A stretch of 64,000 nt of DNA, from contig NZ_VAHM01000003.1 of NCBI RefSeq assembly GCF_005796185.1, positions 124,001-188,000 on the forward strand, read 5' to 3'. This stretch comes from Pseudarthrobacter sp. NamB4. Lineage in GTDB: Bacteria; Actinomycetota; Actinomycetes; Actinomycetales; Micrococcaceae. The translations under genes and the position numbers were made by a program. Below the pieces are notes generated by a model, which ran no database searches, had not been told where the DNA came from, and saw only the letters and a program-made list of their open reading frames with translations. This document shows positions 9,466-33,521 of this stretch, piece by piece. Each line of letters starts with the position of its first letter. Positions within the stretch are counted from its first letter, which is position 1.

Positions 9466-10026
9466 TCAGGCCGGAATCGGGAGGGAGGAAGTGAGGCTTT
9501 GCCCCAGTTCCGGAAGCTGCAGCACCAGCCAAGGACTGAATGCCCAAGGTGCGGCCTCAGTTGCCGCTATCAGATCCGGTAGGGGAGCCCATTGATATTC
9601 GCATAGCTCTGACGGCCGTGGCGTCAGGCCACCGGCAATCGTGGCGGTGAATACAGGGCAGACTTCATTTTCGACAATGCCATTCGCGTCCACAGCCCTG
9701 TAGCTAAAGCGCGGCAGGCACTGTTGCAGGTTGGAGATCTCCATCCCGAGTTCCCATCTGCCCCTGCGCCGGACCGCATCAACAGTGCTTTCCCCGGGCA
9801 TCGGGTGTCCACAGAACGAATTTGTCCATACTCCAGGCCAGGCCGCCTTGGTGAGGGCACGCCGGGTAACCAGGACCCGTCCCGCCTCATCAAACACGTA
9901 ACAGGAAAAGGCCAGGTGCAAGGGGGTATCCCCATGATGGACGTCCTGCTTCGGTGCTGACCCGCAAGGGATTCCGTCTGCGTCCAGGAGTACCACGAGT
10001 TCCTGGACCGGATCCGTAACAGTCAT
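9466..10026 (-). CDS. idi: Isopentenyl-diphosphate delta-isomerase, type I
   Basis: This enzyme interconverts isopentenyl and dimethylallyl diphosphate, priming isoprenoid synthesis in the cytoplasm. The 186-residue Nudix-fold protein has the type I active-site cysteine in TNSFCGHP (about residue 72), the Nudix-like segment AVRRRGRWELGM, and the catalytic glutamate in ENEVCPVF. It is a single gene flanked by unrelated neighbours, with the terminator of the next gene just upstream of its start. In this window it is one of three isoprenoid genes; the others are the UbiA-like EboC at 14.3 kb and the polyprenyl synthase at 24-25 kb. Confidence 0.96.
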   Translation of the reverse strand: MTVTDPVQELVVLLDADGIPCGSAPKQDVHHGDTPLHLAFSCYVFDEAGRVLVTRRALTKAAWPGVWTNSFCGHPMPGESTVDAVRRRGRWELGMEISNLQQCLPRFSYRAVDANGIVENEVCPVFTATIAGGLTPRPSELCEYQWAPLPDLIAATEAAPWAFSPWLVLQLPELGQSLTSSLPIPA

Positions 10027-10122: not shown

Positions 10123-11064
10123 CTAGAAGCGGAGCGTCCGCAGGTAGTTGTAGCCCACCTCGGCCGTCTGCAGCGGCGTGACGTCCGGCTGGTCGTTTTC
10201 GACGATGAACTCCTTGGGGGTGTGAGCCCGGAAAATGCGGGCGAAGTCGATGGTCCCGGTTCCCAGGTCAGCGAAACCACCCGAGACGTCGCGGTCCTTC
10301 ACGTGGTACTGCAGGACCTTCTGCGGAGCCTGGAGGATAGTGTCGATGGCAAACTGGATCGGGTCTGCTGCGCCCACGCCGACACCGCCGCTGACGGCCC
10401 AGTAAAGGTCAACCTCAAGGTGGACCAGCTTGGGGTCGAGCCGGCTGGTGAAGATGTCCCAGGGGGTCAGGCCGCCGCCGAGGTCGGTAGTGAACTCGTG
10501 GGCATGGTTGTGGTAGCCGTACTTCAGCCCGGACTGCTGGGCAACAGCAGCCTCCTCGTTCATCTGGTCAGCCCACCGGCGCCAGTTGTCAGCGGAGCTG
10601 GAAACCAGGTACGGCACGTTGATGTGGGTCTGGCCGAGTGTCACTGCATTGGCGATCTTCGTCTCCAGCGCGGCCGGGGTGGCGCTGATTCCGTCGTGGC
10701 TTGAGGACGGGGTGATGCCGAGCGAATCGAGCGTCCCACGCATCGCTTCGGCGGTGCGGCCGTAGAGGCCGGCGAGCTCAACCTTGGTGAAGCCGAAGTC
10801 AGCCAGGCTTGCCAGCGTCGCTTCGATGCCCTCACCGCGCATGATGGAACGGAGCGTGTAGAGCTGGATGCTGATAAGTCCGGGGGCTACCGGTCGGCCG
10901 GCAGCCTGCGCGGCGGGTGCCGCGACAGCAGCGGTTCCACCGATGCCGGCGAGGCCAACGCCTACGCCTGCTGCTACTGCTCCCCTCAGGAAGCTGCGGC
11001 GGTCGACCCCCTTTTCTTCCAACGAGCGACGAAGGGCGCCTGGGGCATTAAATCCGAAGCACAT
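10123..11064 (-). CDS. Tat-exported sugar phosphate isomerase/epimerase-like protein
   Basis: This 313-residue xylose-isomerase-like TIM barrel is preceded by a twin-arginine signal (DRRSFLRGAVAAG) and an Ala-rich cleavage region, so it is likely exported folded. Barrel features include ISIQLYTLRS, KYGYHNHAHEF with metal-ligand-type histidines, HLEVDLYWA, and QYHVKDRD. Related proteins act on sugars or keto-sugars, often beside sugar oxidoreductases. The ATG at 11064 has AGGAAAGG at good spacing, so the longer open frame to 11208 is rejected. Export suggests periplasmic-side or extracellular sugar conversion, perhaps of the product of the secreted PQQ-type dehydrogenase at 20.3 kb; that link is inference. 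Up to 442 bases lie upstream, with a promoter candidate at their far end. Confidence 0.88.
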   Translation of the reverse strand: MCFGFNAPGALRRSLEEKGVDRRSFLRGAVAAGVGVGLAGIGGTAAVAAPAAQAAGRPVAPGLISIQLYTLRSIMRGEGIEATLASLADFGFTKVELAGLYGRTAEAMRGTLDSLGITPSSSHDGISATPAALETKIANAVTLGQTHINVPYLVSSSADNWRRWADQMNEEAAVAQQSGLKYGYHNHAHEFTTDLGGGLTPWDIFTSRLDPKLVHLEVDLYWAVSGGVGVGAADPIQFAIDTILQAPQKVLQYHVKDRDVSGGFADLGTGTIDFARIFRAHTPKEFIVENDQPDVTPLQTAEVGYNYLRTLRF

Positions 11065-11506
11065 AAGTTGCCTTTCCTGGCAGTGAGTGCGTTCCTCCAC
11101 CGGCATTGGGGAGAAGCAGACGAAGCTGCAACGCAGCGGCTTTAAGGTTTCGCGGCACGCACTGATTATGGCTGCGGCTGGCAGGCCACGGTTAGTTGCT
11201 TCACCCACAGCGTCCTCGCCGTGAGCTCCGCGCGCTACCGCTGCCGTCGATCAGTACGGACACGAAGGGAGCAGGAACTCACTGCTACAGCTGTGGTGCG
11301 AGCTTTGCTGACTGAATTCCTTGATTTCACGCGCCTTATTGGCGCCCGAAACCCAAGCAGAAAGTGTTTTCTTCCGGCCTGGCCGGGCAACGGCGTCTTG
11401 TACTCGAAGTAGCGTCTCCGTTGACCGGGCTTCTGGCTTGAGACTATTCTCGGCTTTTGTTGTCTGTCAAGCAAAAGTCAAGGATTGTTAGGAGAAGTTT
11501 GTCGCC
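11065..11506. other. 442-base non-coding region upstream of the Tat isomerase gene
   Basis: No convincing gene is visible; short open frames here lack ribosome sites and family similarity. The far end holds a promoter candidate (11441-11470). The long leader of roughly 370 bases would be unusual and could hold an unrecognised regulatory element. Confidence 0.5.
11441..11470 (-). promoter_or_regulatory. Sigma-70-like promoter candidate
   Basis: On the minus strand a perfect TTGACA (-35) at 11470-11465 is followed after 16 bases by AATAGT (or after 18 bases by TAGTCT). It lies just after the ROK regulator gene and reads toward the Tat-exported isomerase. A second TTGAC lies a few bases upstream, so overlapping operators are possible. 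Confidence 0.45.
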
Positions 11507-12715
11507 CTAGCCGGCCGCCGCACCGGAAAGGCCCAGAACCATGGCGTCGATGCGCTGCGGAGACATTGCATGGTGGATAGCGAGCATGCTGGCGCCAAGA
11601 ACACCGGCGTCCAGACCGGACGTGGACTGGACAATCTGGAGGTGCTGGGTGGCCAGGGGGATGGTGCGGGAGTAGACCACTTCGCGAATGCCTGCCAGGA
11701 ACTGCTCACCCGTCATGGCCATGGAACCGCCAATAACGATGACGGAAGGGTTGATCAGGCTGACGCACGCGGACAGCACCTCACCCACATCCCTGCCGGC
11801 CTGGCGGACGGCGTGCACAGCTTCTGTGACGCCGGCCCCTACGAGCCGCACAACATCCTCGCTGGTGCTTGCGTCCAAGCCGAGCGCACGCAACCTGGTT
11901 GCCACCGCAGGCCCTGACGCCACAGCTTCAAGGCAGTCCTGATTTCCGCAATGGCAGGGAATTCCGGTGCCGTTATGCACCCGGATATGCCCGATGTCGC
12001 CGGCCACCCCGTCCGCCCCACGCTGCAGCATGCCGCTCGACACGATGCCCGAGCCGATGCCCGTGGCAACTTTCACGAAGATGAGATCGTCCACGTTCGG
12101 CCAGGCAACGTTCCGCTCGCCCAGCGCCATGATGTTGACATCGTTGTCCACGAGGACCGGCACCTGGAAATGGCCCTGCAGGTAGCCTGGAACGTCGAAG
12201 CCGTTCCAGCCGGGCATGATCGGAGGATTGATGGGCCGGCCGGTCCGGTGCTCCACCGGGCCGGGAAGGCCGATGCCAATCGCGAGCAGATCCTCCATGG
12301 CCCTTCCGGATTCCTTGAGGAGGCCGGAGGCGAGCTCAACTACGTCCTGCAGCACAACATCGGGACCGCTCTTTACTTCGATGCTGCGGGCCGCCTCCTT
12401 TAAACGGTGCCCGGTGAGGTCCGTGACCGCCAGGCGCAGGTGCGATGCGCCGATGTCCACTCCCAGGACGATTTTGCTGCCGGCCTTCAAGGCAATGCGC
12501 GAGGAAGGACGTCCGCCGGTCGAGACGGCGTCGTCCACAAAGCCAACCAGCCCCAGTTCCATCAGCGCCTCAATGCGGAGCGTGATGGTGGAACGGGCCA
12601 GCCCCATCTGTTCCGCGAGCTCGGTCCGGGTGCGCGGACGTCCATCCCGAAGGATCTGAAACAGTTCGCTCGCTCCGGACGAACCCAGGCCGTTGAAGCT
12701 ACTTATGTCACTCAT
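11507..12715 (-). CDS. ROK family transcriptional regulator
   Basis: This 402-residue protein has an N-terminal winged helix-turn-helix (RTELAEQMGLARSTITLRIE) followed by a ROK sugar-kinase-like domain. That domain has a DIGASHLRLAV phosphate-loop region and the ROK zinc motif CHCGNQDCLE. ROK repressors typically release DNA when a sugar or sugar phosphate binds. The gene is divergent from the Ebo-like operon across 323 bases and upstream of the Tat-exported isomerase on the same strand, so it could control either or both. The ATG at 12715 places the DNA-binding domain normally. Confidence 0.92.
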   Translation of the reverse strand: MSDISSFNGLGSSGASELFQILRDGRPRTRTELAEQMGLARSTITLRIEALMELGLVGFVDDAVSTGGRPSSRIALKAGSKIVLGVDIGASHLRLAVTDLTGHRLKEAARSIEVKSGPDVVLQDVVELASGLLKESGRAMEDLLAIGIGLPGPVEHRTGRPINPPIMPGWNGFDVPGYLQGHFQVPVLVDNDVNIMALGERNVAWPNVDDLIFVKVATGIGSGIVSSGMLQRGADGVAGDIGHIRVHNGTGIPCHCGNQDCLEAVASGPAVATRLRALGLDASTSEDVVRLVGAGVTEAVHAVRQAGRDVGEVLSACVSLINPSVIVIGGSMAMTGEQFLAGIREVVYSRTIPLATQHLQIVQSTSGLDAGVLGASMLAIHHAMSPQRIDAMVLGLSGAAAG

Positions 12716-13038: not shown

Positions 13039-14289
13039 TTGGGTACATCAGCTGACAGCACGCCGGGCACGGGCCCGATGGCAGAACAGGCCTCCCACGC
13101 CTACGGCAGGACGGGCATCTGGCTGATCGGGGCGCGCGGGTCTGTAGCCACAACGGCAACCGCCGGCCTAGCCGCCATTACCGCCGGACTGGCAAAGGCC
13201 ACCGGGTGCGTCACTGAGCAGGATGCTTTTGGCGGCGTCGCACTGCCTGCCTTCGGGGACCTCGTGGTGGGCGGGCACGATATCAGCAGTGTCTGCATGG
13301 CAAAGCGCGCGGAAGCACTGGTCGAGTCGGGAATGCTGCCGCCCCATCTCGTCGAGGCTGTCCGGCCCCAGCTTCTGGAGGCTGACCAGCGGGTACGGCC
13401 CGGTTACGATCCTGCCCAGCAGCAGGAAGCGCAGGCTGAGGTGGCCCGGCGGCTTGCCCAGGACATCCTGGACTTCAAGCGCTCCAGCGGCCTGGACTGC
13501 GTCATAGTTATCGACGTCGCCTCTACGGAAGCACCTGTGGAGCAGATCCCCGAATTTGCGGATGCGGACCTTCTTCTTGCAGCACTCGAGGATCCGGCAC
13601 GCCAGGTGCTGCCGGCCAGCTCCCTCAGCGCCTACGCCGCGATATTGGCCGGTTCGCCCTACGCATGTTTCACCCCGTCTACTGCACTCAATCTCCCTGT
13701 ACTGCGGCAGCTGGCGGCACAGCACGGAATCCCCACCGCAGGCCAAGACGGCAAGACGGGCCAGACCTGGTTGAGGTCTGTCCTGGCTCCGGCTTTCGCC
13801 GCACGCGGTTTGCGTGTCCTGTCCTGGGCGGGAACCAACCTTCTGGGCGGCGGTGACGGTGCCACCCTCGCCGACCCTCTGGCGGTCTCCGGGAAGCTGC
13901 AGTCCAAGAACCGCGGGCTGCAGGAACTGACCGGGGGTGCTGTAACTCCGCTGCACATCGACAACGTCCAGGACCTGGGCGAGACGAAAGTGGCCTGGGA
14001 CCACATCAACGTCGAGGGGTTCCTCGGCTCGCGCCTCTCGCTGCAGACGACCTGGAGCGCCTATGACTCCATGCTGGCTGCGCCCATGGTCCTCGACCTT
14101 TCGCGGCTGATGGCCCTGGCCCACGCGGCTGGAGAAGAAGGCCACGTCGGGGCGCTCGGATTCTTCTTCAAGGATCCATGGGGCAGTGACGAGCACGCCT
14201 TCGCCCACCAGACCCGCAACCTTGTGGAGTGGGCACGGTCCGCCAGCGCCAAAGCGGCCGCCGGTGCCGGAAGCTCCGGTCAGCTATGA
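13039..14289 (+). CDS. ino1: Inositol-3-phosphate synthase (INO1 type), first gene of Ebo-like operon
   Basis: This 416-residue enzyme belongs to the myo-inositol-1(3)-phosphate synthase family, which cyclises glucose 6-phosphate to a cyclitol phosphate using internally recycled NAD. Signatures are the NAD motif LIGARGSVATT, the conserved DGKTGQT, TNLLGGGDG, and the C-terminal DSMLAAPMVLDL. TTG at 13039 is the best start because AAGGAGGAAG sits 5-6 bases upstream; the open frame above it has no family similarity. Its stop overlaps the eboC-like start (ATGA), so it is co-translated with the operon. Ebo clusters elsewhere carry EboD, a dehydroquinate-synthase-like sugar-phosphate cyclase, which is missing here. 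This gene may supply an equivalent carbocycle; that is inference. It may instead feed general inositol lipid or mycothiol synthesis. Confidence 0.9.
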   Translation: MGTSADSTPGTGPMAEQASHAYGRTGIWLIGARGSVATTATAGLAAITAGLAKATGCVTEQDAFGGVALPAFGDLVVGGHDISSVCMAKRAEALVESGMLPPHLVEAVRPQLLEADQRVRPGYDPAQQQEAQAEVARRLAQDILDFKRSSGLDCVIVIDVASTEAPVEQIPEFADADLLLAALEDPARQVLPASSLSAYAAILAGSPYACFTPSTALNLPVLRQLAAQHGIPTAGQDGKTGQTWLRSVLAPAFAARGLRVLSWAGTNLLGGGDGATLADPLAVSGKLQSKNRGLQELTGGAVTPLHIDNVQDLGETKVAWDHINVEGFLGSRLSLQTTWSAYDSMLAAPMVLDLSRLMALAHAAGEEGHVGALGFFFKDPWGSDEHAFAHQTRNLVEWARSASAKAAAGAGSSGQL

Positions 14290-15167
14290 GCTCCCTGAAC
14301 GACTACCTGGAGCTCGTCCGGGCGCCTGCTGTCCTTACTGTCATCGGCGACACGCTGGCGGGCGGGGCGGCAGCGGGGCACCGACTCGGTGGCCGCAGGA
14401 CCCTTCTTCCCCTGGCGAGTGCCTGCTTCTATGCCGGCGGCATGGCGCTCAACGACTATGCCGACCGCGGGACCGACGCAGACGAGCGCCCTGAAAGGCC
14501 CATCCCTTCCGGGCGTATCAGCCCGAACAAGGCTTTGGCGGCGGCTGCCGTCCTCACCCTGGCGGGTCTGGGCCTAAGCGCCGCCGGTGGAGGCAGGCGT
14601 GCGGCCGCCGTGGGCCTCCCCCTCGCCGCCGCCATCTGGACCTATGACCTGCTGGCCAAGCAGCATCCGGTTTCCGGTGCACTCACCATGGGCAGCTGCC
14701 GGGCACTCGATGTCCTGATGGGGGCCGGCTCGGCGAAGCTCCGGCCCGCGCTTGCGTCCGCCGGCCTCGTGGGCAGCCAGGCCGTGGCCGTGACAGTGCT
14801 CTCCCGCGGTGAAGTCGGGGGAACAACCACGACGACGGCTTCCGGCGTTGCCGCCGGCACTGGCCTTATTGCCGCTGCGCTGCTCGCCGGTGCTACAGGT
14901 CCCCGCGGCACATTCCCCGCCGTCCTCGCCGCCACCGCGGCCTATGCCGCACGTTGTGCCCCGGCACAGATCCGGGCTGCGCGGAGCCCCCAAGCCAAGA
15001 ACGCGCTGGAGGCAACCAGGGCAGGAATCCGGGCCATGATCCCGCTGCAGACGGCGCTCACCCTCCGTCAGGGGAATCCGGCGGCGGCAGCAGTACTCGT
15101 GTCAGTGGACCTGTTTGGCAAAGCCATGCGGTCACGTCCCGGGAAAATGAGGATCAGCGAGTCATGA
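14286..15167 (+). CDS. eboC: UbiA-like prenyltransferase, EboC type
   Basis: This 293-residue membrane protein has several hydrophobic helices and the UbiA family prenyl-diphosphate motif in LNDYADRGTDADERPERP, at about residues 60-77. UbiA enzymes move a prenyl chain to an aromatic or other acceptor in the membrane. A clear second aspartate-rich motif is not visible, as in divergent members such as EboC, so catalysis is not assured. ATG at 14286 overlaps the previous stop, and its own stop overlaps the next ATG at 15164, both as ATGA, so translation is tightly coupled. The neighbours (EboA, EboB, EboE and EboF types) identify the gene as EboC rather than a menaquinone MenA or heme CtaB. Confidence 0.85.
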   Translation: MSSLNDYLELVRAPAVLTVIGDTLAGGAAAGHRLGGRRTLLPLASACFYAGGMALNDYADRGTDADERPERPIPSGRISPNKALAAAAVLTLAGLGLSAAGGGRRAAAVGLPLAAAIWTYDLLAKQHPVSGALTMGSCRALDVLMGAGSAKLRPALASAGLVGSQAVAVTVLSRGEVGGTTTTTASGVAAGTGLIAAALLAGATGPRGTFPAVLAATAAYAARCAPAQIRAARSPQAKNALEATRAGIRAMIPLQTALTLRQGNPAAAAVLVSVDLFGKAMRSRPGKMRISES

Positions 15168-16657
15168 CAGCCGGCACATCCCCCATGCCTTTCAGCCTCG
15201 GATACGGGACCAACGGATTTACGGACCATCCGCTTCCCATAGCGCTGGAACTCCTCGCGGAACAGGGCTACGGTGCGGTGGCCCTGACACTGGGCCACCC
15301 GCACCTGGATCCGTTCGCCGAGGACCTGGACGTCCAACTGTCGGCCCTGCGGCAACAACTTGATGAGCTGCGATTGCGCGTGGTCATTGAAACCGGCACC
15401 CGCTTCCTGCTTGACCCGCGGCACAAGCACCGCCCTGCACTGGTAGATGAGGAGGCCGGAATCCGCCTCGCCTTCCTTCGCCGTGCCGTCGACATCGCGG
15501 CCGGCCTGGAGGCGGAATGTGTCTCCTTCTTCTCGGGGATCCTGCCGGAGGACACAAGCGCCGAAACGGGATGGCAACGGCTGACCACGCGGGTAGCGGA
15601 CATCGTTGACTACGCGCGTTCCCGCAACGTGACAGTCGCCGTCGAACCTGAACCCGGCATGCTGGTCCAAACAGTCTCCGACGTACTGCGCCTGCGGACA
15701 GCACTGGGAAATCCGGCCAACCTGCGTGTGACAGTGGATATCGGCCACTGCGTAGTAGTTGAACCCGCCGGTGTCCGCGGGGCCCTCCTCGAGGCCGGGC
15801 CGCTGCTGGCCAACGTCCAACTCGACGACATGCCCAAGCACAGGCACGAGCACCTGCCGTTCGGCGAAGGCGCCGTCGACCTGCCCCTCGCGCTCGCCAC
15901 GCTGGCCGAACTGGAGTACCGCGGCGTTGCCGCCGTCGAACTGCCCCGGCATTCCCACGACGCTCCGGGGCTTGCCGCCCGGAGCATGGCCGCGCTTCGC
16001 GCCGGCTGGGAGGAATCGCTGCGCACCAGGGACCTGGAGCGCTGGCTGCAGGAGAGCGCGACGGCGGTCTCGGCGGACCGGGGGTCCCTCACCAGGGTTT
16101 TTGCGGCTGCCGGCCGCCGCCTGGGGCGGGGCCCCCTCCGGCCGGAGGCAGATCCGTCCGGCATCCTGTTCGGCACGACAAGCGACCACGCGCGTGGGCA
16201 GCTGATTGCCCGGCTCCGGGACATCCTGCCGGAGGAGGAACTGGCCGAAACGCTGCTGGCCCTGTACGACGGGGGCGACTCGGCGGAGCGCCGCGGCGTC
16301 CTTCGGGGATTGGGAGCGTTGGCTGCAGGATCACCCAAGCTGCCGGCCGCCGTCGTGGCCGCAGGACTGCGCATGACAACGGAGGCATTGCGGACCAACG
16401 AGAGCGGCCTGGTTGCCGCCGCCGCTGGTCCCTTCGCTGCCGCCCACCTGGACCAGCACAGCTGGCGCCACGCGGTGCTGAAGCTGGTCTTCCTGGGCAT
16501 CAGCCTCACCGCCGTAACCGATCTCAGGGAACGGGCCGATGATGAGCTCGCCCGGATGGCTGGCGATTTCGCCGCCGAACGCCGTGCCGCAGGGCGGCCG
16601 GTCCCGGATGACGTCCACCTGATCCTGGCGTCTTCCCGTACCCCCACTTCTTCCTAA
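15164..16657 (+). CDS. eboA: Fusion: sugar isomerase/epimerase barrel plus EboA domain
   Basis: This 497-residue protein has two parts. Residues about 1-280 form a xylose-isomerase-like TIM barrel (SLGYGTNGF, VAVEPEPGMLVQTVSDV, VTVDIGHCV, VAAVELPRHSHD). Residues about 330-490 resemble EboA, with repeat-like helices and the conserved DQHSWRHAVLKLVFLG. EboA is usually a separate protein of unknown biochemistry in metabolite-traffic clusters. The barrel shares the VEPEPG block with EboE two genes downstream, so it is probably an EboE-related paralogue joined to EboA. The ATG at 15164 overlaps the eboC stop. Joining suggests the two parts act on the same intermediate; no reaction is known. Confidence 0.82.
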   Translation: MTAGTSPMPFSLGYGTNGFTDHPLPIALELLAEQGYGAVALTLGHPHLDPFAEDLDVQLSALRQQLDELRLRVVIETGTRFLLDPRHKHRPALVDEEAGIRLAFLRRAVDIAAGLEAECVSFFSGILPEDTSAETGWQRLTTRVADIVDYARSRNVTVAVEPEPGMLVQTVSDVLRLRTALGNPANLRVTVDIGHCVVVEPAGVRGALLEAGPLLANVQLDDMPKHRHEHLPFGEGAVDLPLALATLAELEYRGVAAVELPRHSHDAPGLAARSMAALRAGWEESLRTRDLERWLQESATAVSADRGSLTRVFAAAGRRLGRGPLRPEADPSGILFGTTSDHARGQLIARLRDILPEEELAETLLALYDGGDSAERRGVLRGLGALAAGSPKLPAAVVAAGLRMTTEALRTNESGLVAAAAGPFAAAHLDQHSWRHAVLKLVFLGISLTAVTDLRERADDELARMAGDFAAERRAAGRPVPDDVHLILASSRTPTSS

Positions 16658-16668
16658 GGACATCCCGC

Positions 16669-17547
16669 ATGCGCATTTTCGATCCCCATATCCATATGAC
16701 AAGCCGCACCACCAATGACTACGAGGCCCTTTATGCCAGCGGAGTGCGGGCCCTCGTGGAACCGGCCTTCTGGTTGGGGCAGCCCCGCACCAACGTCGGC
16801 TCCTTCATCGACTACTTCGACTCGCTGCTGGGGTGGGAACGGTTCCGTGCCGCCCAATTCGGCATCCGCCACCACGCCACCATCGCCCTCAACCCCAAGG
16901 AAGCGAACGACCCCCGGTGCGTTCCCGTCCTCGAGGAAATTCCGCGCTACCTGATCAAGGAGGGCGTGGTGGCCGTTGGCGAGATCGGCTACGACTCGAT
17001 GACTCCCGCTGAGGACGAGGCCTTCAGCCGGCAGCTGGAGCTGGCGCGCGAGTACTCCCTGCCGGCGATGGTGCACACACCGCACAGGGAGAAGCTTGCC
17101 GGCACGCGCCGAACACTTGACGTGGTCCGCGAGTCGGGGTTGGCCCCCGGAATGGTGGTTGTTGACCACCTCAACGAAACGAACGTTGAGATGGTCAAGG
17201 ACGCCGGGGCCTGGATGGGATTCTCCATCTACCCCGACACCAAAATGGACGAGCAGCGCATGGTGGCCATCCTCCGCACCTACGGAACGGACAGGATGCT
17301 GGTGAACTCTGCCGCCGACTGGGGCCGGTCCGACCCCCTGAAGACAGTCAGCACCGCACAAGCAATGCTCGACGCCGGCTTCACTGCTGATGACGTGGAT
17401 AAGGTGCTGTGGCGCAATCCGGTCGAGTTCTTCGGCCAGAGCGGCCAACTGATCCTCGATCCCATCCCGGGGTTCGATGCCGCGGAGCTGCCGGATGCGG
17501 CTGCCGGCTTTGAGGGCAACTCCGTGCTGCGGGGGGTTCGCGCCTGA
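16669..17547 (+). CDS. eboB: TatD-like metal-dependent hydrolase, EboB type
   Basis: This 292-residue protein has the amidohydrolase/TatD fold. The metal motif is at residues 5-9 (DPHIH), followed by a GEIGYD strand end, a MVHTPH block with histidine ligands, VVVDHLNE, and a late NSAADWG at the position of the last aspartate ligand. In Ebo clusters this gene is EboB. It begins 11 bases after the EboA fusion and its TGA overlaps the EboE ATG by one base. The reaction is unknown; the metal ligands look intact, so it is probably an active hydrolase on a metabolite rather than a nuclease. Confidence 0.85.
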   Translation: MRIFDPHIHMTSRTTNDYEALYASGVRALVEPAFWLGQPRTNVGSFIDYFDSLLGWERFRAAQFGIRHHATIALNPKEANDPRCVPVLEEIPRYLIKEGVVAVGEIGYDSMTPAEDEAFSRQLELAREYSLPAMVHTPHREKLAGTRRTLDVVRESGLAPGMVVVDHLNETNVEMVKDAGAWMGFSIYPDTKMDEQRMVAILRTYGTDRMLVNSAADWGRSDPLKTVSTAQAMLDAGFTADDVDKVLWRNPVEFFGQSGQLILDPIPGFDAAELPDAAAGFEGNSVLRGVRA

Positions 17548-18671
17548 TGCTCCTCTCCTACTGCACCAACGTCCACCCTGCGGAGGACTTCGACGGCGTG
17601 ATCCGCCAGCTCCGCGAATATGCGGGGCCCATCCGCCGCAAGGCAGGCCTTGACATCCTGGGCATCGGGCTGTGGCTGCCGGCCGGACTGGCCCGCCAGC
17701 TGGCAGGCAGCGCCGTGGACCGTGCAGCCCTCAGCGACGTCCTCGACGCCGAAGGGCTGCAGCTGCACACCATCAATGCTTTCCCCTACGGCGGCTTCCA
17801 TAATGAGGTAGTCAAGCTTGACGTCTACAAGCCGACATGGGCAGAGACCGGGCGGCTGGACTACACGCTGGACTGCGCCGAAGTGCTGGCGGCCCTGCTG
17901 CCAAAAGGAACCACCGGTTCCATCTCCACCCTTCCCCTTGCGTGGCGGACGTCCTGGTCCGGGGAGGACGACGACGCCGCCACCTCCGGCTTCGCCGAGC
18001 TGTCCTCCCGCCTGCGGGACCTGCGCGAGCGGACGGGAAAGACCGTGCGCGTTGCCGTCGAACCGGAACCGGGCTGCGTCCTGGATACAGTCGCGGATGT
18101 TGTCGGTTGGCTGGAACCCCGGATCCAACGGGGCATCGATCCGGAATTCGTGGGCCTGTGTGTGGACACCTGCCACCTGGCTGTTTCGTTCGCTGACCCT
18201 GCCGGCGCTGTCCAGCAGATCGCCGCAGCAGGCCTGCGGATCGTCAAGGTGCAGGCGTCAGCCGCGCTGCACGTCGCCGATCCGTCCGATCCGGCAGCCC
18301 GGGAGGCCCTGGCGGGCTTCGTTGAACCGCGGTACCTCCATCAGGTGCGGGAAGCGCAGCCGGCCGGAGTTATCCGTGCCGACGACCTCGACGAAGCGCT
18401 CAGGGATCTGCCGGGGGAAAGCGCATGGCGTGTCCACTTCCACATCCCACTGCACCATGTGCCATCCGCCCCACTGGAGACCACCGTGGACGTACTGCGC
18501 CGGACGGTTGCCGAAGTTGCCCGGCTGCCTTACGCGCCTGAAGTCCACCTCGACATCGAGACCTATACCTGGAGCGTGCTGCCCGGCGCCTCGGTGGGTA
18601 TCGCCGACGGAATCGCTGCAGAAATCACGTGGGCCGCGTCCAACCTGTTGGACGCCGCGGGCGTCCGGTGA
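17547..18671 (+). CDS. eboE: Metabolite traffic protein EboE (TIM-barrel isomerase-like)
   Basis: This 374-residue protein begins LLSYCTNVHPAEDFDGV, characteristic of EboE, and continues as a xylose-isomerase-like barrel with VAVEPEPGCVLDTV, CVDTCHLAV, VRVHFHIP-like (WRVHFHIPLHHVP) and HLDIETYTW strands that carry possible metal ligands. EboE is required with other Ebo proteins for moving a precursor across the inner membrane during scytonemin synthesis in Nostoc, but its chemistry is not established. Here it overlaps eboB by one base and precedes the EboF phosphatase by 39 bases. The match to EboE is the strongest single argument for naming this operon. Confidence 0.88.
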   Translation: MLLSYCTNVHPAEDFDGVIRQLREYAGPIRRKAGLDILGIGLWLPAGLARQLAGSAVDRAALSDVLDAEGLQLHTINAFPYGGFHNEVVKLDVYKPTWAETGRLDYTLDCAEVLAALLPKGTTGSISTLPLAWRTSWSGEDDDAATSGFAELSSRLRDLRERTGKTVRVAVEPEPGCVLDTVADVVGWLEPRIQRGIDPEFVGLCVDTCHLAVSFADPAGAVQQIAAAGLRIVKVQASAALHVADPSDPAAREALAGFVEPRYLHQVREAQPAGVIRADDLDEALRDLPGESAWRVHFHIPLHHVPSAPLETTVDVLRRTVAEVARLPYAPEVHLDIETYTWSVLPGASVGIADGIAAEITWAASNLLDAAGVR

Positions 18672-18710
18672 CCCGCAGCGCGTCCTGACCACCTGAAGCA
18701 AGGAATAACC

Positions 18711-20111
18711 GTGAAACCAGTACTGCTGCTGAACGTTGTTGGCCTGACCGCCAAGGCCCTGCGCCGGATGCCCCGGCTGTCGCGGCTGGCCGCGCAAGGC
18801 TGGTCCTCCGAACTGGCCACCGTGCTGCCGGCGGTGACGTGCACCGTCCAGTCCACGATGTTGACGGGCCTGTCACCGGCGCAGCATGGGATTGTGGGCA
18901 ACGGATGGTACTTCCGGGAACTCGGCGATGTCTTCCTGTGGCGCCAGCACAACATGCTGGTCAGCGGTGAGAATATCTGGGAGACCGCGCGCCGCCGCCA
19001 TCCCGGCTACAGTGCGGGCAACATCTGCTGGTGGTATGCGATGGGGATGTCCACTGACGTGACGGTGACCCCCCGGCCCATTTACCATGCGGACGGCCGC
19101 AAATCCCCTGATGCGTACGTACGCCCGGCGGAACTGCACGGCGAACTGGTGACCCACTTCGGCGACTTTCCGCTCTTCCAGTACTGGGGCCCCACGGCCA
19201 CCATCAAGTCCACTGAGTGGATCGTCAACGCCACCCGGCACGTCCTGCGGAACCAGTCACCGAACCTGCTCATGGCGTACCTGCCGCACCTGGACTACGA
19301 CCTGCAGCGGTTCGGACCGGACTCGCCGCAGGCTGACCTTGCGGCGGCAGAGCTGGACCGCGCCCTTGCCCCGCTCCTGGACGAGGCTGGAGAGCGCGGT
19401 TATGAAGTCATCGCCGTGGCGGAGTACGGGATCGAGAACGCGCACAAGCCGGTGGATATCAACCGCATCTTGCGCCGGGAAGGACTCCTTGAGGTTTACG
19501 TACAGGACGGCAGGGAGCAACTCGACCCATGGACTTCGCGCGCCTTTGCCGTCGCCGACCACCAGGTCGCCCACGTCTACGTCTCCAACCCCTCCGACCT
19601 GGAGCGCGTGGCGGCACTGCTTCGCGGGACCGACGGCGTGGACGAGGTCCTCGACCGGGAAGCGCAGGGCCGCTACGGACTCGACCATGAAAGGTCAGGG
19701 GAACTGGTAGTCATAGCGGAACCGGGCGCCTGGTTCACATATTACTTCTGGCTGGACGACGACCGGGCGCCTGAATACGCACGCGGCGTGGATATCCACC
19801 GGAAACCGGGCTATGATCCCGCCGAGCTCTTCTTCAACCCGGCGGACAGGCTTGCCAAGGCAAAAGCCGGCCTCAACCTGGTGAAGAAGAAGCTGGGCCT
19901 GCGTTATGCCATGAGTACAGTGCCGCTGGACCCCACGCACGTTCGGGGCACGCATGGCCGGCTTCCCGATTCAGCGGACAGCACGCCCCTGGTGATCGGT
20001 TCAACTGACCGGATTCCTTCTGCTGTCGAGGCGTTCGTGAATTCCGGCCGGCAGGTCCCCGCTGCCGCGGTGAAGGACCTTGTGCTGCAGACGCAGGGCA
20101 TCGGCGTCTAA
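18711..20111 (+). CDS. eboF: Alkaline phosphatase superfamily protein, EboF type
   Basis: This 466-residue protein has the nucleotide pyrophosphatase/phosphodiesterase-type fold. A nucleophile-region threonine lies in PAVTCTVQSTMLTG, followed by HGIVGNGWY and a late GTHG. Two positions usually used for metal binding differ: the opening strand reads LLLNVVGLT where most family members have an aspartate, and AEYGIENAH replaces the usual SDHG. EboF relatives share such changes as far as I recall, so the site may be altered by design. No signal peptide is seen, so it should be cytoplasmic. It closes the operon; a GC-rich hairpin follows the stop. Confidence 0.83.
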   Translation: MKPVLLLNVVGLTAKALRRMPRLSRLAAQGWSSELATVLPAVTCTVQSTMLTGLSPAQHGIVGNGWYFRELGDVFLWRQHNMLVSGENIWETARRRHPGYSAGNICWWYAMGMSTDVTVTPRPIYHADGRKSPDAYVRPAELHGELVTHFGDFPLFQYWGPTATIKSTEWIVNATRHVLRNQSPNLLMAYLPHLDYDLQRFGPDSPQADLAAAELDRALAPLLDEAGERGYEVIAVAEYGIENAHKPVDINRILRREGLLEVYVQDGREQLDPWTSRAFAVADHQVAHVYVSNPSDLERVAALLRGTDGVDEVLDREAQGRYGLDHERSGELVVIAEPGAWFTYYFWLDDDRAPEYARGVDIHRKPGYDPAELFFNPADRLAKAKAGLNLVKKKLGLRYAMSTVPLDPTHVRGTHGRLPDSADSTPLVIGSTDRIPSAVEAFVNSGRQVPAAAVKDLVLQTQGIGV

Positions 20112-20337: not shown

Positions 20338-22488
20338 ATGATGACAGTCAATCGACAAGGGATAGCGAAAGCGGGCGCCGGCCTCGCGATGGCCGCACTG
20401 CTGGCCACCGCTTTTGCGGCCGCACCAGCCCAGGCACAGCCGGGCAACCCTGCTCCCGGTGCAGCCCCGGCCGACAGCAGCTTCCAAAAGGTGACGCTGA
20501 ACGACACGCCGGGTGAGCCCGTGGACCTGGCGGTGCTGCCCAACAACAACGTCCTGCACACGACGCGCGGCGGTGAGGTCTGGCTCAACGACAACAAGAC
20601 AGGGCTCAACACCCTGGCTGCAACGCTGGACGTCTACGAGCACGACGAAGAGGGCCTGCAGAGCATCGCCCTTGACCCCAAGTTCGGTACCAAGGGCAAC
20701 AACTGGGTTTACCTGTACTACTCTCCCCCGCAGGACACCCCCGTTGACGACCCCGCCACCCCCGGAGTCAATGAAGGTGACGCGCCGTTCAGCGGTACGG
20801 CGGCGGACTTCGATAAGTTCAAGGGCTCCCTGGTGCTTTCGCGCTTCCAGTTCAACGGGTCCACCATCGACCTGGCTACCGAGCAGCAGATTATCGAAGT
20901 ACCCGTGGACCGTGGCATCTGCTGCCACGTCGGCGGTGACATCGTGTTCGATGCCGAGGGCAACCTGTACCTCTCCACCGGCGACGACACCAACCCCTTC
21001 CAGTCCGGAGGCTATACGCCGATTGACGAACGCCCCACCAGCAACCCCGCACTCGATGCACAGCGGACGTCTGCAAACACCAACGACCTGCGCGGCAAGG
21101 TCCTGCGCATTACGCCCAAGGACGGCGGCGGCTACACCATTCCCGAGGGCAACCTTTTCCAGCCCGGTACTCCCCAGACCCGCCCGGAGATCTACGTGAT
21201 GGGCCTGCGCAACCCCTTCCGCGTGGAACTCAACCAGAACACCGGCGAACTCTACATCGCCGACTACTCGCCTGACGCCCGTTCCGCCAACCCCCTCCGC
21301 GGTCCTGCCGGCACCGGCAAGTGGATGTCAGTCACGGAACCCTCCAACTACGGCTGGCCCTACTGCGCCACCGCAGAACTGCCGTACGTGGACTACGACT
21401 TCGCCACCGGCACCTCCGGTGCAGCCTTCAACTGCGCCGCTCCGGTCAACGAATCCCCGAACAACACCGGCCTCCGCGAGCTGCCTCCGGTTTCGCAGCC
21501 CCAGGTCTGGTACTCCTACGGCGCTTCGGCTGAATTCCCCGAGCTGGAACGGGGCGGAATCGGCCCGATGGCCGGCCCCGCCTACGAGTTCGACGAGAAG
21601 GCAACCAAGGGCAACGCCCCTGTCGCCTGGCCGTCCTACTACGACGGCAAGTCCTTCTTCTACGAGTGGACCCGCGATTACATCAAGGCCATGACCACCG
21701 AGAACGGCGACCTGGTCTCCATCGAGAACGTCGTCGACTCCCTCGTCGTCGACAACCCCATCGACATGGAGTTCGGCCCCAATGGTGCCCTCTACGTCCT
21801 TGAGTACGGCGACGGCTACTTCGGCGAAAACCCGGACGCACAGCTGTCACGCATCGACTACATCGGCGCGGGCGGGAACCACAGCCCGGTGGCTGTAGCC
21901 TCCGGCACCCCCACCGCTGGAGCCTCCCCCCTCAATGTCCAGTTCTCCAGCGAGGGCACTGCAGACGCCGACGGCGACAAGATCCGCTACGAGTGGGACT
22001 TCAACTCGGACGGCATCGTGGACTCTGAGGAAGCCAACCCCACCTACACCTACCAGAAAACCGGAACCTACACCGCAAGCCTGAAGGTTATCGACCTGGG
22101 TGGCAAGCACCGTGGCCGCCACTCCTCGGCGGAGGTTGCGATCGAGGTAGGCAACCAGGCACCTGTCATCGAATTCGTCAGCCCCGTTGCCGGCCAGGCG
22201 TTCCAGTTCGGTGACACCGTCACCTACGAGGTCCGCGTCACTGATGACCAGCCGGTGGACTGCTCGCTCGTCAAGGTGAGCTACATCCTCGGCCACCACA
22301 CGCACGGTCACCCGCAGACCACCACTTCGGGCTGCACCGGAACCCTTACCACCACTGTTCCCGAAGGACACGACCCCGCCGTGGACGACCTCTCGGCAGT
22401 CTTCAGCGCAAGCTACACCGACGCCGGCGACGATGCTTCGGCTCCGCTCACCGGAACCGCGGAGGTAGTTCTGCTGGCCTCCAACTGA
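20338..22488 (+). CDS. Secreted PQQ-dependent sugar dehydrogenase with PKD domain
   Basis: This 716-residue exported protein has an N-terminal signal peptide ending in the AQA region (residues about 10-35). A six-bladed glucose/sorbosone dehydrogenase-type propeller follows (NNVLHTTRGGEVWL, RGICCHVGGDIVFD, GLRNPFRVELN). Next come a PKD-like domain at about residues 515-605 (IRYEWDFNSDGIVDS, TYTYQKTGTYTASL) and a further beta domain. Family members oxidise sugars to keto-sugars or lactones with pyrroloquinoline quinone or a similar quinone cofactor. No PQQ synthesis genes are in the window. It stands alone between the Ebo-like operon and a ROK regulator and ends in a very strong terminator. 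It may supply keto-sugars to the nearby isomerase and oxidoreductase genes, which is inference. Confidence 0.88.
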   Translation: MMTVNRQGIAKAGAGLAMAALLATAFAAAPAQAQPGNPAPGAAPADSSFQKVTLNDTPGEPVDLAVLPNNNVLHTTRGGEVWLNDNKTGLNTLAATLDVYEHDEEGLQSIALDPKFGTKGNNWVYLYYSPPQDTPVDDPATPGVNEGDAPFSGTAADFDKFKGSLVLSRFQFNGSTIDLATEQQIIEVPVDRGICCHVGGDIVFDAEGNLYLSTGDDTNPFQSGGYTPIDERPTSNPALDAQRTSANTNDLRGKVLRITPKDGGGYTIPEGNLFQPGTPQTRPEIYVMGLRNPFRVELNQNTGELYIADYSPDARSANPLRGPAGTGKWMSVTEPSNYGWPYCATAELPYVDYDFATGTSGAAFNCAAPVNESPNNTGLRELPPVSQPQVWYSYGASAEFPELERGGIGPMAGPAYEFDEKATKGNAPVAWPSYYDGKSFFYEWTRDYIKAMTTENGDLVSIENVVDSLVVDNPIDMEFGPNGALYVLEYGDGYFGENPDAQLSRIDYIGAGGNHSPVAVASGTPTAGASPLNVQFSSEGTADADGDKIRYEWDFNSDGIVDSEEANPTYTYQKTGTYTASLKVIDLGGKHRGRHSSAEVAIEVGNQAPVIEFVSPVAGQAFQFGDTVTYEVRVTDDQPVDCSLVKVSYILGHHTHGHPQTTTSGCTGTLTTTVPEGHDPAVDDLSAVFSASYTDAGDDASAPLTGTAEVVLLASN

Positions 22489-22538
22489 TGCTCCCAGGAG
22501 TACAGGTGGCCGCACGCTAACGGCAAGCCTGCGGCGCG

Positions 22539-22588
22539 AAAGCGGACCCTGTCCCAGCCAAAGCTGGGACAGGGTCCGCTTTCTTTTT
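22539..22588. terminator. Strong terminator, 20-base perfect stem
   Basis: Arms at 22539-22558 and 22563-22582 are perfectly complementary around a 4-base loop CAAA, followed by CTTTTT on the plus strand and preceded on the other side by bases that are less U-rich. It ends the sugar dehydrogenase gene and separates it from the convergent ROK gene. Confidence 0.92.
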
Positions 22589-22606: not shown

Positions 22607-23878
22607 CTACGGAACCGGAATTGGCGTGCCGCCGTCGTCGTGCTGCGGGCGCAGGAACCCGGCGGGGTCCAGGATGAGCGGTTCAAAGGCGAGTTCCGCC
22701 GCGCCGACAAGGATGGGGTCCTCGCCAAGGGGGGCCAGCTCAATGGCAACGTTTTCCCGGGGACCGCGCGTTGCGGGAGCGCGCAACGCCTCGCTCAGGG
22801 CCTCCGGCGCTGCGCGGACGAGGATGCGCAGGAACCCTCCCATGACGATCAGGGAGGGATTCAGCAGGTTGACGACGCTCCTCAGGCCGGCGGCCAGCAG
22901 CTGGACTTGCCGGTCTATGATCCTGCGCAGGTCCTGGGACGCCGATTCGTCCCGCAGCTTTTCCAGAACGGCCTCTTCGAGGTTCTCCGTTTCACCTGCG
23001 GGAAGGCCGACGGCAGCGATGAGCTCTTCACGGGTAACCTCCGCTTCAAGGCAGCCGAAGGACCCGCAAGTGCAGCGGGCACCGCCCGAGCGTACGAGGG
23101 TGTGCCCAAGCTGCCCGGCGAACCCGGTGGCTCCGCGAACGAGGCGGCCCTCGCTGATGACGCCACCGCCAATGCCACTCGCTCCGCCGTAGAGATAGAC
23201 AAGGTCGCAAACACCGCGGCCGGCACCGAACGTGGCCTGCGCCCTGGCGCCCACCACGGCGTCGTTCGCGGCGATCACCGGCAGTTTCAGGGCGTCGCTC
23301 AGGAGTGCCGAGAGCGGCTGGTCCCGCCAGCCAAGATGCGGTGCCTCGATCACTGTGCCGTCAACAGGATCCACCAGGCCCGGGATGGCCAACCCCACAC
23401 CCATGATCCGGTGGCCTGCGGGCAGCGAGGTGCGCATACCGGTGTAGACCGCCGTCACGATATTAACCACTTCCGCTACCGAGGGAGGGCGGACCGTATG
23501 GAAACGGACAGGATTGACGATGCGGCCGCCAAGCGAGACGAGCGCAACGCTGACGACGTCGATGTCCGGGTTAACTGCCAATGCCAAGGCGCCCGGACTC
23601 GGCTGGATCATGATGCTCGGCCGGCCAAACCCCTGTGCCTGGTCCAGGTCGCTCTCCACTACCAGGCCGAGCTGGACCAGTTCCCCGACGAGCGCCGCGA
23701 TGGTGGAGCGGTTAAGTCCGGTGGCGCGCGTGAGCTGGGCGCGGGAGACACCCGACATCGAGTGCACCAAGCCAAGCACCGTGGACAGGTTGTGCTGCCG
23801 GGTGGAGTCGCGGTTGTTTCCGAGGCTGCTGCCGGACAACCCCCACCGGACACGTTCCTCCTGCGGTGGCGAAGTCAT
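22607..23878 (-). CDS. ROK family transcriptional regulator
   Basis: This 423-residue repressor has an N-terminal winged helix-turn-helix (RAQLTRATGLNRSTIAALVG). The ROK domain carries the zinc-binding block CTCGSFGCLE and a GGASGIGGGV loop. It is convergent with the sugar dehydrogenase and is followed, in its own direction, by no other gene. Upstream lies the polyprenyl synthase on the same strand, ending 47 bases away. It most likely responds to a sugar ligand and controls a local sugar locus, either the dehydrogenase or the 25-34 kb transporter cluster. The ATG at 23878 gives normal domain spacing. Confidence 0.92.
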   Translation of the reverse strand: MTSPPQEERVRWGLSGSSLGNNRDSTRQHNLSTVLGLVHSMSGVSRAQLTRATGLNRSTIAALVGELVQLGLVVESDLDQAQGFGRPSIMIQPSPGALALAVNPDIDVVSVALVSLGGRIVNPVRFHTVRPPSVAEVVNIVTAVYTGMRTSLPAGHRIMGVGLAIPGLVDPVDGTVIEAPHLGWRDQPLSALLSDALKLPVIAANDAVVGARAQATFGAGRGVCDLVYLYGGASGIGGGVISEGRLVRGATGFAGQLGHTLVRSGGARCTCGSFGCLEAEVTREELIAAVGLPAGETENLEEAVLEKLRDESASQDLRRIIDRQVQLLAAGLRSVVNLLNPSLIVMGGFLRILVRAAPEALSEALRAPATRGPRENVAIELAPLGEDPILVGAAELAFEPLILDPAGFLRPQHDDGGTPIPVP

Positions 23879-23925
23879 GCCGTCATGATATCGGCAGGAA
23901 GGCTGTATCTATGAGGCGGGAACCA

Positions 23926-25026
23926 TTATGGCGTACCCCGTTGTGGTTCCATGCCGGAGACGACGGCAAACAGCATCTCTTGAAGGCGCCGGCGCAGGGC
24001 GGGGGGCACTCCGTCCGACTCAAGATGCATTACCGCCAGCTGGGCGTTCTCGGTGGCCAATGCAATGGCATAGTTCTTTGCGCCGCAGGCCATCAGGACA
24101 GTCCGGACGTACCCGGCGTCGGCAGCGGTCATGTTCGGGGACCCGATGACTGAGGCGATCCTGCTCCACTCCGGCTGTGTGGCTGCATAGGAGAGCAGCG
24201 CGGTCCGCTTGCCTTCCCGAAGGTCCCCCCAGTTGGTTTTGCCGGTGCGGCTTTCCTTGCCGAAAACTCCCAGCACGTCATCGGCGATCTGGTACGCGAT
24301 CCCGGCGTAGCGCCCGGCGGACGCAAGCGCGCAAATAACCTTTTCCGGTGCTCCGGCCAGCACGGCTCCTGCCTGCAGCGGCGCCTCAAAGGAGTAGACC
24401 GACGTCTTCTGGTAGGCAGTCTTGGTGATGTCCTCGATCGTGGGCATCGTGGAGGTGCGGCTGAACTCGACATCCAGGATCTCCCCGCCAACAGAGGAAA
24501 AAATCGCGTCGTCGAGGATGTCGTGCAGGCGCTGGCGCACACGGGCCGGCGCTTCGGATGACCTCAACAGCCGGTAGGCGCCGGAAAGCGCAAGGTCACC
24601 GGCGAGGAGCCCGGCCGCGACTCCGGCGTGCTCTGCGGTGGCAGCGGGGGCACCGGAACGCAATGCACGGCTTCGGTAGTGGCCGGACACGTTCGGGATA
24701 CCGCGCCGAATGAAATCACGGTCAACCACGTCGTCGTGAACAATAAGGGCGCTGTGCAGGAGCTCGTAGGAGGCGCCGACTGCAGCGGCGCTGGAGAAAT
24801 CAGTGCCGCCGAGGAGCCGGTACGCCAGCATAACCAACCGCGGGCGGGAACGCTTGCCGCCCGCGGTTGCCCTTTCAAGTGCTTCCCAAAGGTGCAGATA
24901 GGAGCCGTTGACGGCGGCAGCACGCAACTTCGCGTCCGCGAAAAACTGCTGCAGCGTATCCTCGACGAGCGCGAGGTCGGCGCTGGCATTCAGTGCATGG
25001 TCTGCGTCCACGTAAGTCACCGTCAC
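23926..25026 (-). CDS. Polyprenyl diphosphate synthase (geranylgeranyl type)
   Basis: This 366-residue trans-prenyltransferase condenses isopentenyl diphosphate onto an allylic primer. The first aspartate-rich motif DDVVD is at residues 98-102, with two small residues and a serine just before it; GKRSRPRL binds diphosphate at about 57-64. The second motif reads QIADDVLG. The short DDxxD first motif and size match actinobacterial geranylgeranyl or farnesyl diphosphate synthases (IdsA/CrtE class). Chain length cannot be fixed from sequence alone. No carotenoid genes adjoin it. It could feed the UbiA-like EboC or general isoprenoid needs. Its start is about 50 bases from the end of the permease gene on the same strand. 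Confidence 0.93.
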   Translation of the reverse strand: MTVTYVDADHALNASADLALVEDTLQQFFADAKLRAAAVNGSYLHLWEALERATAGGKRSRPRLVMLAYRLLGGTDFSSAAAVGASYELLHSALIVHDDVVDRDFIRRGIPNVSGHYRSRALRSGAPAATAEHAGVAAGLLAGDLALSGAYRLLRSSEAPARVRQRLHDILDDAIFSSVGGEILDVEFSRTSTMPTIEDITKTAYQKTSVYSFEAPLQAGAVLAGAPEKVICALASAGRYAGIAYQIADDVLGVFGKESRTGKTNWGDLREGKRTALLSYAATQPEWSRIASVIGSPNMTAADAGYVRTVLMACGAKNYAIALATENAQLAVMHLESDGVPPALRRRLQEMLFAVVSGMEPQRGTP

Positions 25027-25073
25027 GGCCCTCCACTCCGTCGTCCTGGCTCCCCCGGTCTGGCCGGTACTGT

Positions 25074-27667: not shown

Positions 27668-27735
27668 GCGACGAACCTAACACATTATGTCGGCAATCGG
27701 TACAAGGTCGTCGATTTGTGCCAGTCTTCTGTTAT

Positions 27736-27751
27736 TGTGACAGCAGTCACG
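27736..27751. promoter_or_regulatory. CRP/GlxR-like operator
   Basis: TGTGACAGCAGTCACG matches the TGTGA-N6-TCACA consensus of CRP-family regulators at nine of ten defined positions. It lies between the divergent ATPase and binding-protein genes, where catabolite control of sugar uptake would be expected. Confidence 0.5.
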
Positions 27752-27820
27752 CAAAGTAGCGGGCATGAAAGAGCATGCTGCACCAGGCGAAGACGCACCT
27801 AACTCATTGAGGAGATACAC

Positions 27821-28864: not shown

Positions 28865-28952
28865 GACGGCGCGGTGTGGGTTCCCTGCCACTGGCGTGGA
28901 GCCCACACCGATCCAACTGCTTAACCACCATCTGCCGGATAAAGAGGAAAGA

Positions 28953-30125: not shown

Positions 30126-30432
30126 TGTCGGACGCCACTGATCCTGCCACCGAAGGGGCCGAGGGGGCATGGCCCGCAGCCGGAGCCGCCTACTCTCGGC
30201 ACCAGTGTTTGCTGCCGGAAGCCTTAGGTGAATCGGCGGTTGAACTGCGTGCCTTCTATGGCGCGCTCTCCGCTTTGTAGGCAGTGGCTCAGCCAGCCTT
30301 TCCAACAAAGCACCAGCTCTTATCAGTTTTACGTGCAACGACTTATGCTTGACCGTCTGAGAAAAGCCCTCCTACCTTTGCAGGAGATGGACATGCACCG
30401 GACGGGCGCATGCCAATGACGCCAGGAGACCC
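30126..30432. other. 307-base non-coding region with a promoter candidate
   Basis: No gene is seen. A promoter candidate lies at 30349-30378 (TTGACC, 18 bases, TACCTT), reading into the isomerase operon. A further AT-rich stretch near 30318-30350 may carry operators. Confidence 0.45.
30349..30378 (+). promoter_or_regulatory. Promoter candidate for the isomerase-oxidoreductase operon
   Basis: TTGACC (-35) and TACCTT (-10) are separated by 18 bases, ending about 55 bases before the ATG at 30433. Confidence 0.4.
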
Positions 30433-33520: not shown

Positions 33521-33521
33521 G

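Follow-up and report, generated by a model that had tools for sequence, protein, structure and literature searches.

Organization of the ebo-type operon

The window analyzed here, a 64,000-nucleotide stretch of contig NZ_VAHM01000003.1 from Pseudarthrobacter sp. NamB4, contains an operon related to the Ebo/EDB cluster (eboABCDEF; PMC5133447, PMC6282210). Six co-directional genes lie on the plus strand (13039-14289, 14286-15167, 15164-16657, 16669-17547, 17547-18671, and 18711-20111), with successive intergenic gaps of −4, −4, 11, −1, and 39 bases, in agreement with the initial annotation of six tightly packed genes in which four junctions are overlaps or spacers of at most 11 bases. The first gene starts with TTG at 13039 and is preceded by the Shine-Dalgarno-like sequence AAGGAGGA. 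The annotation as an Ebo-type operon was borne out by the family models, as the EboE model NF035939 (419.1 bits, cut-off 250) and the EboA domain model NF035938 (138.2 bits, cut-off 50) both scored above their cut-offs, with UbiA, TatD, and PF01663 genes alongside in the same tight arrangement as in the known clusters. The operon had also been called complete, which could not be maintained since EboD is missing from it and was found in none of 59 related loci, and a homologue of myo-inositol phosphate synthase (MIPS) is encoded in the EboD place. Judged from its sequence, the locus is a real and apparently intact Ebo-type operon, not complete in the classical sense, of a coherent MIPS-type variant found also in other actinobacteria and, in part, in haloarchaea. 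It also differs from the Ebo/EDB cluster in having an extra isomerase fused to EboA and a prenyltransferase of the SCO3242 rather than the EboC family. In existing NCBI annotation, genes of this kind already carry the labels EboE, EboA domain, and SCO3242 family, and the closest relative among the matches listed is Pseudarthrobacter sp. NamE2, whose EboE is 88% identical.

The gene at the EboD place (13039-14289, plus strand) encodes a predicted MIPS-like cyclitol-phosphate synthase, consistent with its first description as an inositol phosphate synthase, and scores 174.9 bits with PF07994 (cut-off 25) and 92.8 bits with PF01658 (cut-off 27). The MIPS of A. fulgidus (1u1i) aligns full-length with the protein (E 7.4e-53), and the positions corresponding to 1u1i D225, N255, D261, K274, K278, K306, D332, and K367 are retained and are invariant in 15 Ebo-linked MIPS rows. 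We take these positions (N255, D261, K274, K278, K306, and D332 among them) to be catalytic, and the deposited structure 3qvx carries a mutation at K367. The A. fulgidus enzyme thus shares its fold family and the aligned putative catalytic residues with gene 1, which differs in belonging to a separate Ebo-linked clade (1u1i is not a row of the tree described below) and in that its activity is predicted. The model for the mycothiol-type Ino1 equivalog, TIGR03450, gave 14.9 bits against a cut-off of 638. A MIPS relative annotated as a five-membered-cyclitol-phosphate synthase (6k96) scores 30.8 bits to the gene 1 protein and, since a relative of this type exists, the product of gene 1 could differ from inositol phosphate.

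The second gene (14286-15167, plus strand) encodes a UbiA-superfamily membrane prenyltransferase (PF01040, 75.3 bits, cut-off 34.2) in the EboC role. Its original EboC-type label had to be revised, as the EboC model NF035940 gave 157.7 bits against a cut-off of 250, while the SCO3242 family model NF045897 gave 300.4 bits against a cut-off of 260. The Asp-rich NDxxDxxxD motif is present as NDYADRGTD, and a matching pattern was found in all 59 judged loci. Compared by labels alone, genes 1 and 2 recall SCO3242 and SCO3243 of the S. coelicolor CDA cluster, two adjacently numbered entries of which the former is labelled "putative transferase" and the latter "myo-inositol phosphate synthase" (PMC3610822).

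The third gene (15164-16657, plus strand) encodes a sugar isomerase/epimerase TIM barrel (PF01261, 116.7 bits) fused in one protein to the EboA domain, confirming the epimerase-EboA fusion first described; a narrower EboA family model gave 50.9, under its cut-off of 320. The AlphaFold2 model of the fusion, with a predicted local distance difference test score (pLDDT) of 94.0, comprises a sugar-epimerase barrel, for which UlaE is the best PDB match, and a helical EboA domain. Modeled alone (pLDDT 95.7), the EboA domain resembles a HEAT/ARM-type solenoid, with a best match (8qo9 chain B1, Z 12.4, root-mean-square deviation 3.7, 190 aligned) that falls within the helical-repeat background and may reflect no more than an arrangement frequent in such repeats, and with a best Foldseek match at E 0.065. 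Of 70 judged loci, 16 encode isomerase and EboA as one fused protein and 54 as separate genes; an earlier call on 80 loci had given 14 fused, 8 in the same frame but interrupted, 48 separate, and 10 unjudged.

The remaining genes, all on the plus strand, encode a TatD-like metallohydrolase (EboB, 16669-17547; PF01026, 58.9 bits, cut-off 27), the xylose-isomerase-like TIM barrel EboE (17547-18671), and a type I phosphodiesterase/pyrophosphatase family protein (EboF, 18711-20111; PF01663, 219.9 bits, cut-off 23). The EboB-type and EboF assignments of the initial annotation were sustained by these scores and by tblastn, which found the TatD genes of the seven EboD-type loci examined below at 189-358 bits and their EboF genes at 420-498 bits. 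No dedicated NCBIfam model for EboB or EboF matched among the operon proteins. EboE retains the invariant acidic and histidine residues of a 16-row alignment, and a search of solved structures with the EboE profile gave no match at E 0.001.

MIPS in place of EboD across Actinomycetota

Scanning genome contigs with an EboE alignment drawn from several phyla returned at least 583 relatives, of which the best 80 were kept. All 80 belong to Actinomycetota by their genus names, and in 59 of them EboE is flanked by no less than 7 kb upstream and 3 kb downstream. When tblastn matches anywhere in these 59 loci were counted, EboB was found in 59, the isomerase, EboA, and EboF in 57 each, EboC in 56, and MIPS in 47, so the Ebo genes are conserved together across Actinomycetota, in line with the initial grouping of the six genes. 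EboD was found in 0 of the 59 with four EboD queries (from Ketogulonicigenium, Deinococcus, Azospirillum, and Aureibacter), for which the positive controls are non-actinobacterial only, namely the EboD of three further EboD-type loci, detected at 408-478 bits. The NamB4 genome itself holds a single gene of the dehydroquinate-synthase family (PF01761), which lies on another contig and is taken for aroB.

Of 296 genomes searched from the phylum, 13 have an EboE above the cut-off. All 13 contain a MIPS of at least 484 bits, as compared to no more than 348 bits in the other 283, a score gap that is partly expected from a profile built from 15 Ebo-linked MIPS (the NamB4 copy included), although perfect linkage is not expected from that. 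One of the 283 (G279) holds only pieces of EboE below the cut-off. In each of the 13, this MIPS shares its contig and strand with an EboE and lies upstream of it by 3,149-4,154 bases. This distribution, together with the presence of a second MIPS elsewhere in the NamB4 genome, points to a MIPS dedicated to the operon. Similarly, 28 of 32 actinobacterial plasmid records with EboE were also listed with MIPS, and by eye the members of each pair lie on the same strand about 3-5 kb apart. Streptomyces loci such as those on plasmids L026, L027, L029, L039, and L040 match the NamB4 operon in the order and content of MIPS, SCO3242 prenyltransferase, isomerase, EboA, TatD, EboE, and EboF, and differ in that isomerase and EboA, fused in NamB4, are separate genes. 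The exchange of MIPS for EboD is regular in actinobacteria. The MIPS fold differs from the EboD fold, indicating that MIPS is a replacement, rather than a divergent form, of EboD. The operon is a patchy accessory trait, with EboE above the cut-off in 4 of 59 relatives and in 2 of the 37 genomes of the genus in that set, NamB4 counted.

Seven Streptomyces ebo loci without MIPS (L106:3623-6052, L072, L076, L089, L092, L094, and L107) have an inositol-monophosphatase-superfamily gene and a CrtI/CrtO-like flavin adenine dinucleotide (FAD) oxidoreductase gene upstream of the prenyltransferase. The former was considered as a MIPS substitute and set aside as weak evidence; the seven loci with it all lack MIPS, but these loci are closely related, at 80-87% identity to the query, and HisN was the best-scoring model, below its cut-off. 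Prenyltransferase subfamily was likewise discarded as a marker of MIPS, since L106, without MIPS, passes the SCO3242 model and the MIPS-bearing Gemmatirosa locus fails it. A plasmid of Streptomyces sp. NBC_01244 carries a lone EboE (L028:8965-10143) adjoining type II polyketide genes, and the other ebo genes were not found in that 19 kb stretch.

Loci outside Actinobacteria and the MIPS tree

In the classical clusters, EboD belongs to the dehydroquinate synthase superfamily and acts as a sugar phosphate cyclase (PMC5133447). EboE was found on 16 plasmid records from outside Actinobacteria. Eight of these were examined, and in seven (Ketogulonicigenium, two Deinococcus, Azospirillum, Salipiger, Mycetohabitans, and Aureibacter) a gene annotated as 3-dehydroquinate synthase, the EboD gene, lies next to other ebo genes. 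MIPS had no match in these seven EboD-type stretches and is present in the eighth, from Gemmatirosa. The plasmid search with MIPS also listed five haloarchaeal records, four of which were inspected. On the plasmids of Natronococcus, Halobaculum, and Halocatena (L153:939-11164, L158:4172-10722, and L159:3138-10605), MIPS, EboF-type, UbiA, TatD, and isomerase genes adjoin, while the Halomarina BND7 record has no such gene set around its MIPS. Natronococcus further encodes a TIM-barrel protein that weakly matches a twin-arginine (TAT) signal, together with a pyrroloquinoline quinone (PQQ)-dependent sugar dehydrogenase.

In a midpoint-rooted tree of 66 MIPS rows, the 43 Ebo-linked sequences from actinobacteria group together in a single clade (support 100/99). 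Sister to this clade are the haloarchaeal MIPS (98/91), with the non-ebo Halomarina copy beside them, and Gemmatirosa joins next; 18 MIPS from elsewhere are separated by a 100/100 branch. The tree omits long branches (the other MIPS of NamB4 and that of the Arthrobacter plasmid pZXY24), many Streptomyces rows, which were thinned, and L146, for which there was no sequence. Hymenobacter and Roseomonas plasmids (L154:4557-10303 and L155:4611-10786) carry other MIPS genes with Gfo/Idh/MocA and YcaO genes, possibly for another cyclitol pathway.

The isomerase-EboA hybrid of Actinobacteria has been known since 2016, when it was mentioned by Yurchenko et al. as "data not shown" (PMC5133447). For a MIPS-type Ebo cluster, the matches listed from the open-licence literature (supplements excluded) included no recognizable description, and the word "inositol" is absent from the main text of PMC5133447, PMC6282210, and PMC9235831. 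No earlier report of the MIPS exchange was therefore found in this literature.

Genes surrounding the operon

A gene for a glucose/sorbosone-dehydrogenase-like protein with a PKD domain (20338-22488, plus strand; PF07995, 94.5 bits; PKD_4, 56.7 bits) and, by eye, a secretion-signal-like start begins 226 bases after EboF, and a homologue occurs in 31 of the 59 related loci. A consensus scan found no plus-strand terminator-like site between EboF and this gene, and the same kind of scan placed a terminator-like hairpin of 20 pairs followed by a T-run after it (22538-22583, plus strand), so the transcript may extend through the dehydrogenase-like gene, which is possibly co-transcribed with the operon. 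Kinship of this protein to ScyE was considered and set aside as marginal (24.2 bits, cut-off 80). ScyD/ScyE-annotated genes lie immediately upstream of MIPS on three Streptomyces plasmids (L027:3185-4387, L039:3171-4370, and L040:2990-4189), which recalls the scytonemin locus. On the first of these, a 324-base gene for a 2Fe-2S protein (L027:15433-15756) is labelled as tet(W/32/O) resistance in the plasmid database, probably a false prediction.

On the other side of the operon, a TIM-barrel protein with a twin-arginine-like N-terminus, judged by eye (10123-11208, minus strand; PF01261, 43.1 bits), is a recurrent neighbor, with relatives, some weak, in 28 of the 59 loci. A ROK-family regulator/kinase (11507-12715, minus strand), matched by NCBIfam ROK models including TIGR00744 (166.3 bits, below its cut-off), is divergent from the operon. 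Two possible supply genes, both on the minus strand, encode an isopentenyl-diphosphate isomerase, Idi (9466-10026; NF002995, 251.8 bits, cut-off 127), and a polyprenyl diphosphate synthase (23926-25026; PF00348, 160.4 bits). As fixed partners of the operon these were rejected, being close by in just 3 and 5 of 100 loci, respectively, with one of the five weak.

The region from 22607 to 34517 is a sugar-processing neighborhood with a ROK protein, the polyprenyl synthase, a sugar ATP-binding cassette (ABC) transporter, and several Gfo/Idh/MocA and TIM-barrel genes. Among 89 stretches including the window, ROK homologues were found in at least 15, two ABC subunits in at least 11 each, and the binding protein in at least 9, all of these counts being lower bounds because the open reading frame comparison used a codon-bias filter that misses real genes. 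The presence of such genes at 22.6-34.5 kb of the window and their recurrence would fit an operon that belongs to a locus for sugar uptake and 3-keto-sugar/inositol catabolism, acting with the Gfo/Idh/MocA dehydrogenases, TIM-barrel isomerases, sugar ABC transporter, and ROK regulators. Many loci, however, carry the operon without those sugar genes, and MIPS builds inositol rather than degrading it. We know of no catabolic role for the prenyltransferase, EboE, or EboA, and consider this explanation highly unlikely.

Proposed function of the MIPS-type operon

In Nostoc, each of eboA, eboB, eboC, eboE, and eboF is required for transfer of the scytonemin monomer to the periplasm, and all ebo mutants accumulate the same unchanged monomer in the cytoplasm (PMC6282210). 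Given the gene content described above, we propose, with a probability of roughly one in two, that the MIPS-type Ebo operon makes a small prenylated cyclitol that aids the transfer of a metabolite across the membrane. The order of steps, the product, and the scaffold and transport roles that we infer are as follows. Gene 1 would cyclize a hexose phosphate to inositol phosphate, which the two TIM barrels (the N-terminus of gene 3 and EboE), the TatD-like EboB, and the phosphohydrolase EboF would remodel and dephosphorylate. The membrane prenyltransferase encoded by gene 2 would attach an isoprenoid chain to the cyclitol or one of its derivatives. EboA is probably a scaffold built of helical repeats and may keep the enzymes together at the membrane, a role with which both its fusion to the isomerase and the helical model are consistent; a scaffold of the tetratricopeptide-repeat (TPR)-like kind was suggested for EboA by Klicki et al. 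(PMC6282210). By analogy with the Ebo products in Nostoc, the prenylated cyclitol may then help the metabolite cross the membrane, after which the secreted dehydrogenase-like protein and the exported TIM barrel encoded alongside may act on it.

A cyclitol-derived, possibly prenylated product had been proposed in the initial annotation and is still the best reading of the parts, although the MIPS-for-EboD exchange had been overlooked. As far as sequence can indicate, this exchange favors a prenylated cyclitol as the product, since two unrelated cyclitol-type synthases sharing one slot suggests that the slot needs a sugar-phosphate-derived cyclitol rather than one particular cyclase. The product of MIPS retains its phosphate. 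As EboD-type cyclases release phosphate (PMC5133447), the MIPS type would offer EboF a plausible substrate.

A prenylated cyclitol could also be a natural product that is active itself, as a signal, repellent, or similar, with the export phenotype of Nostoc as a special case. This is unlikely in our view, as the shared cytoplasmic accumulation of unchanged monomer in all Nostoc ebo mutants and the recurrence of secreted-type neighbors next to the operon both speak for a role in transfer; it would nonetheless agree with the isoprenoid-cyclitol metabolite that Yurchenko et al. proposed as the Ebo product (PMC5133447), with the protection against nematodes conferred by the Pseudomonas EDB cluster (cited in PMC6282210), with the position of several actinobacterial loci among natural-product-like genes, and with the occurrence of the operon in just 13 of 296 genomes.

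In another reading, the prenyl acceptor is aromatic. Ubi-297 and its ebo-cluster homologues, which share with gene 2 the UbiA superfamily, the ebo-cluster context, and the Asp-rich motif, use quinolines as farnesyl acceptors in E. coli membranes, 8-hydroxyquinoline-2-carboxylic acid (8-HQA) among them (PMC9235831). If the acceptor here were aromatic in the same way, the inositol made by MIPS would serve another step, e.g., a sugar-like attachment, and an aromatic prenyltransferase gene does adjoin the operon in S. camelliae. The tested Ubi-297 enzymes, however, are from Flavobacteria and relatives and were assayed in vitro; 6 of 14 aromatic acceptors reacted with this group, whose natural substrate is described as not established (PMC9235831). 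The prenyltransferases of the present loci belong to another subfamily, SCO3242, and an aromatic-ring gene is not a fixed member of the operon, which makes an aromatic acceptor distinctly improbable.

Several observations weigh against a prenylated cyclitol that assists transfer. MIPS was not matched in 12 of the 59 loci, and the only tested EboC-group enzymes, those of the Ubi-297 group, prefer quinolines, with cyclitols not mentioned in the parts of PMC9235831 drawn on here. No transporter is a fixed neighbor of the operon across the compared loci, and evidence for a transport role comes from a single organism, Nostoc, which has the EboD type. In the Natronococcus set, EboC scores 197 bits (cut-off 250) and EboE 21-28 bits, and the EboA model had no match, which is why the haloarchaeal loci are termed Ebo-like rather than Ebo.

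The Ebo cluster is widespread, and its product was unknown when it was named in 2016 (PMC5133447); no paper identifying the product was found in the open-licence literature. The presence in the EboD slot of MIPS, a member of an unrelated family with well-known chemistry, strongly hints at a pathway that begins with a cyclitol made from a sugar phosphate, and it makes a vague product question testable. The haloarchaeal loci suggest that the system spans domains. As a tentative and, for now, unlikely extension, a system common to bacteria and haloarchaea might make a prenylated inositol that serves metabolite export as a small carrier in the membrane or as a cofactor, its cyclitol head having evolved twice, through MIPS or a sedoheptulose-type cyclase, around a shared core of prenyltransferase, TIM barrels, TatD-like enzyme, and phosphohydrolase. 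If true, such a shared prenylated-inositol carrier would amount to lipid-linked export chemistry of a new class.

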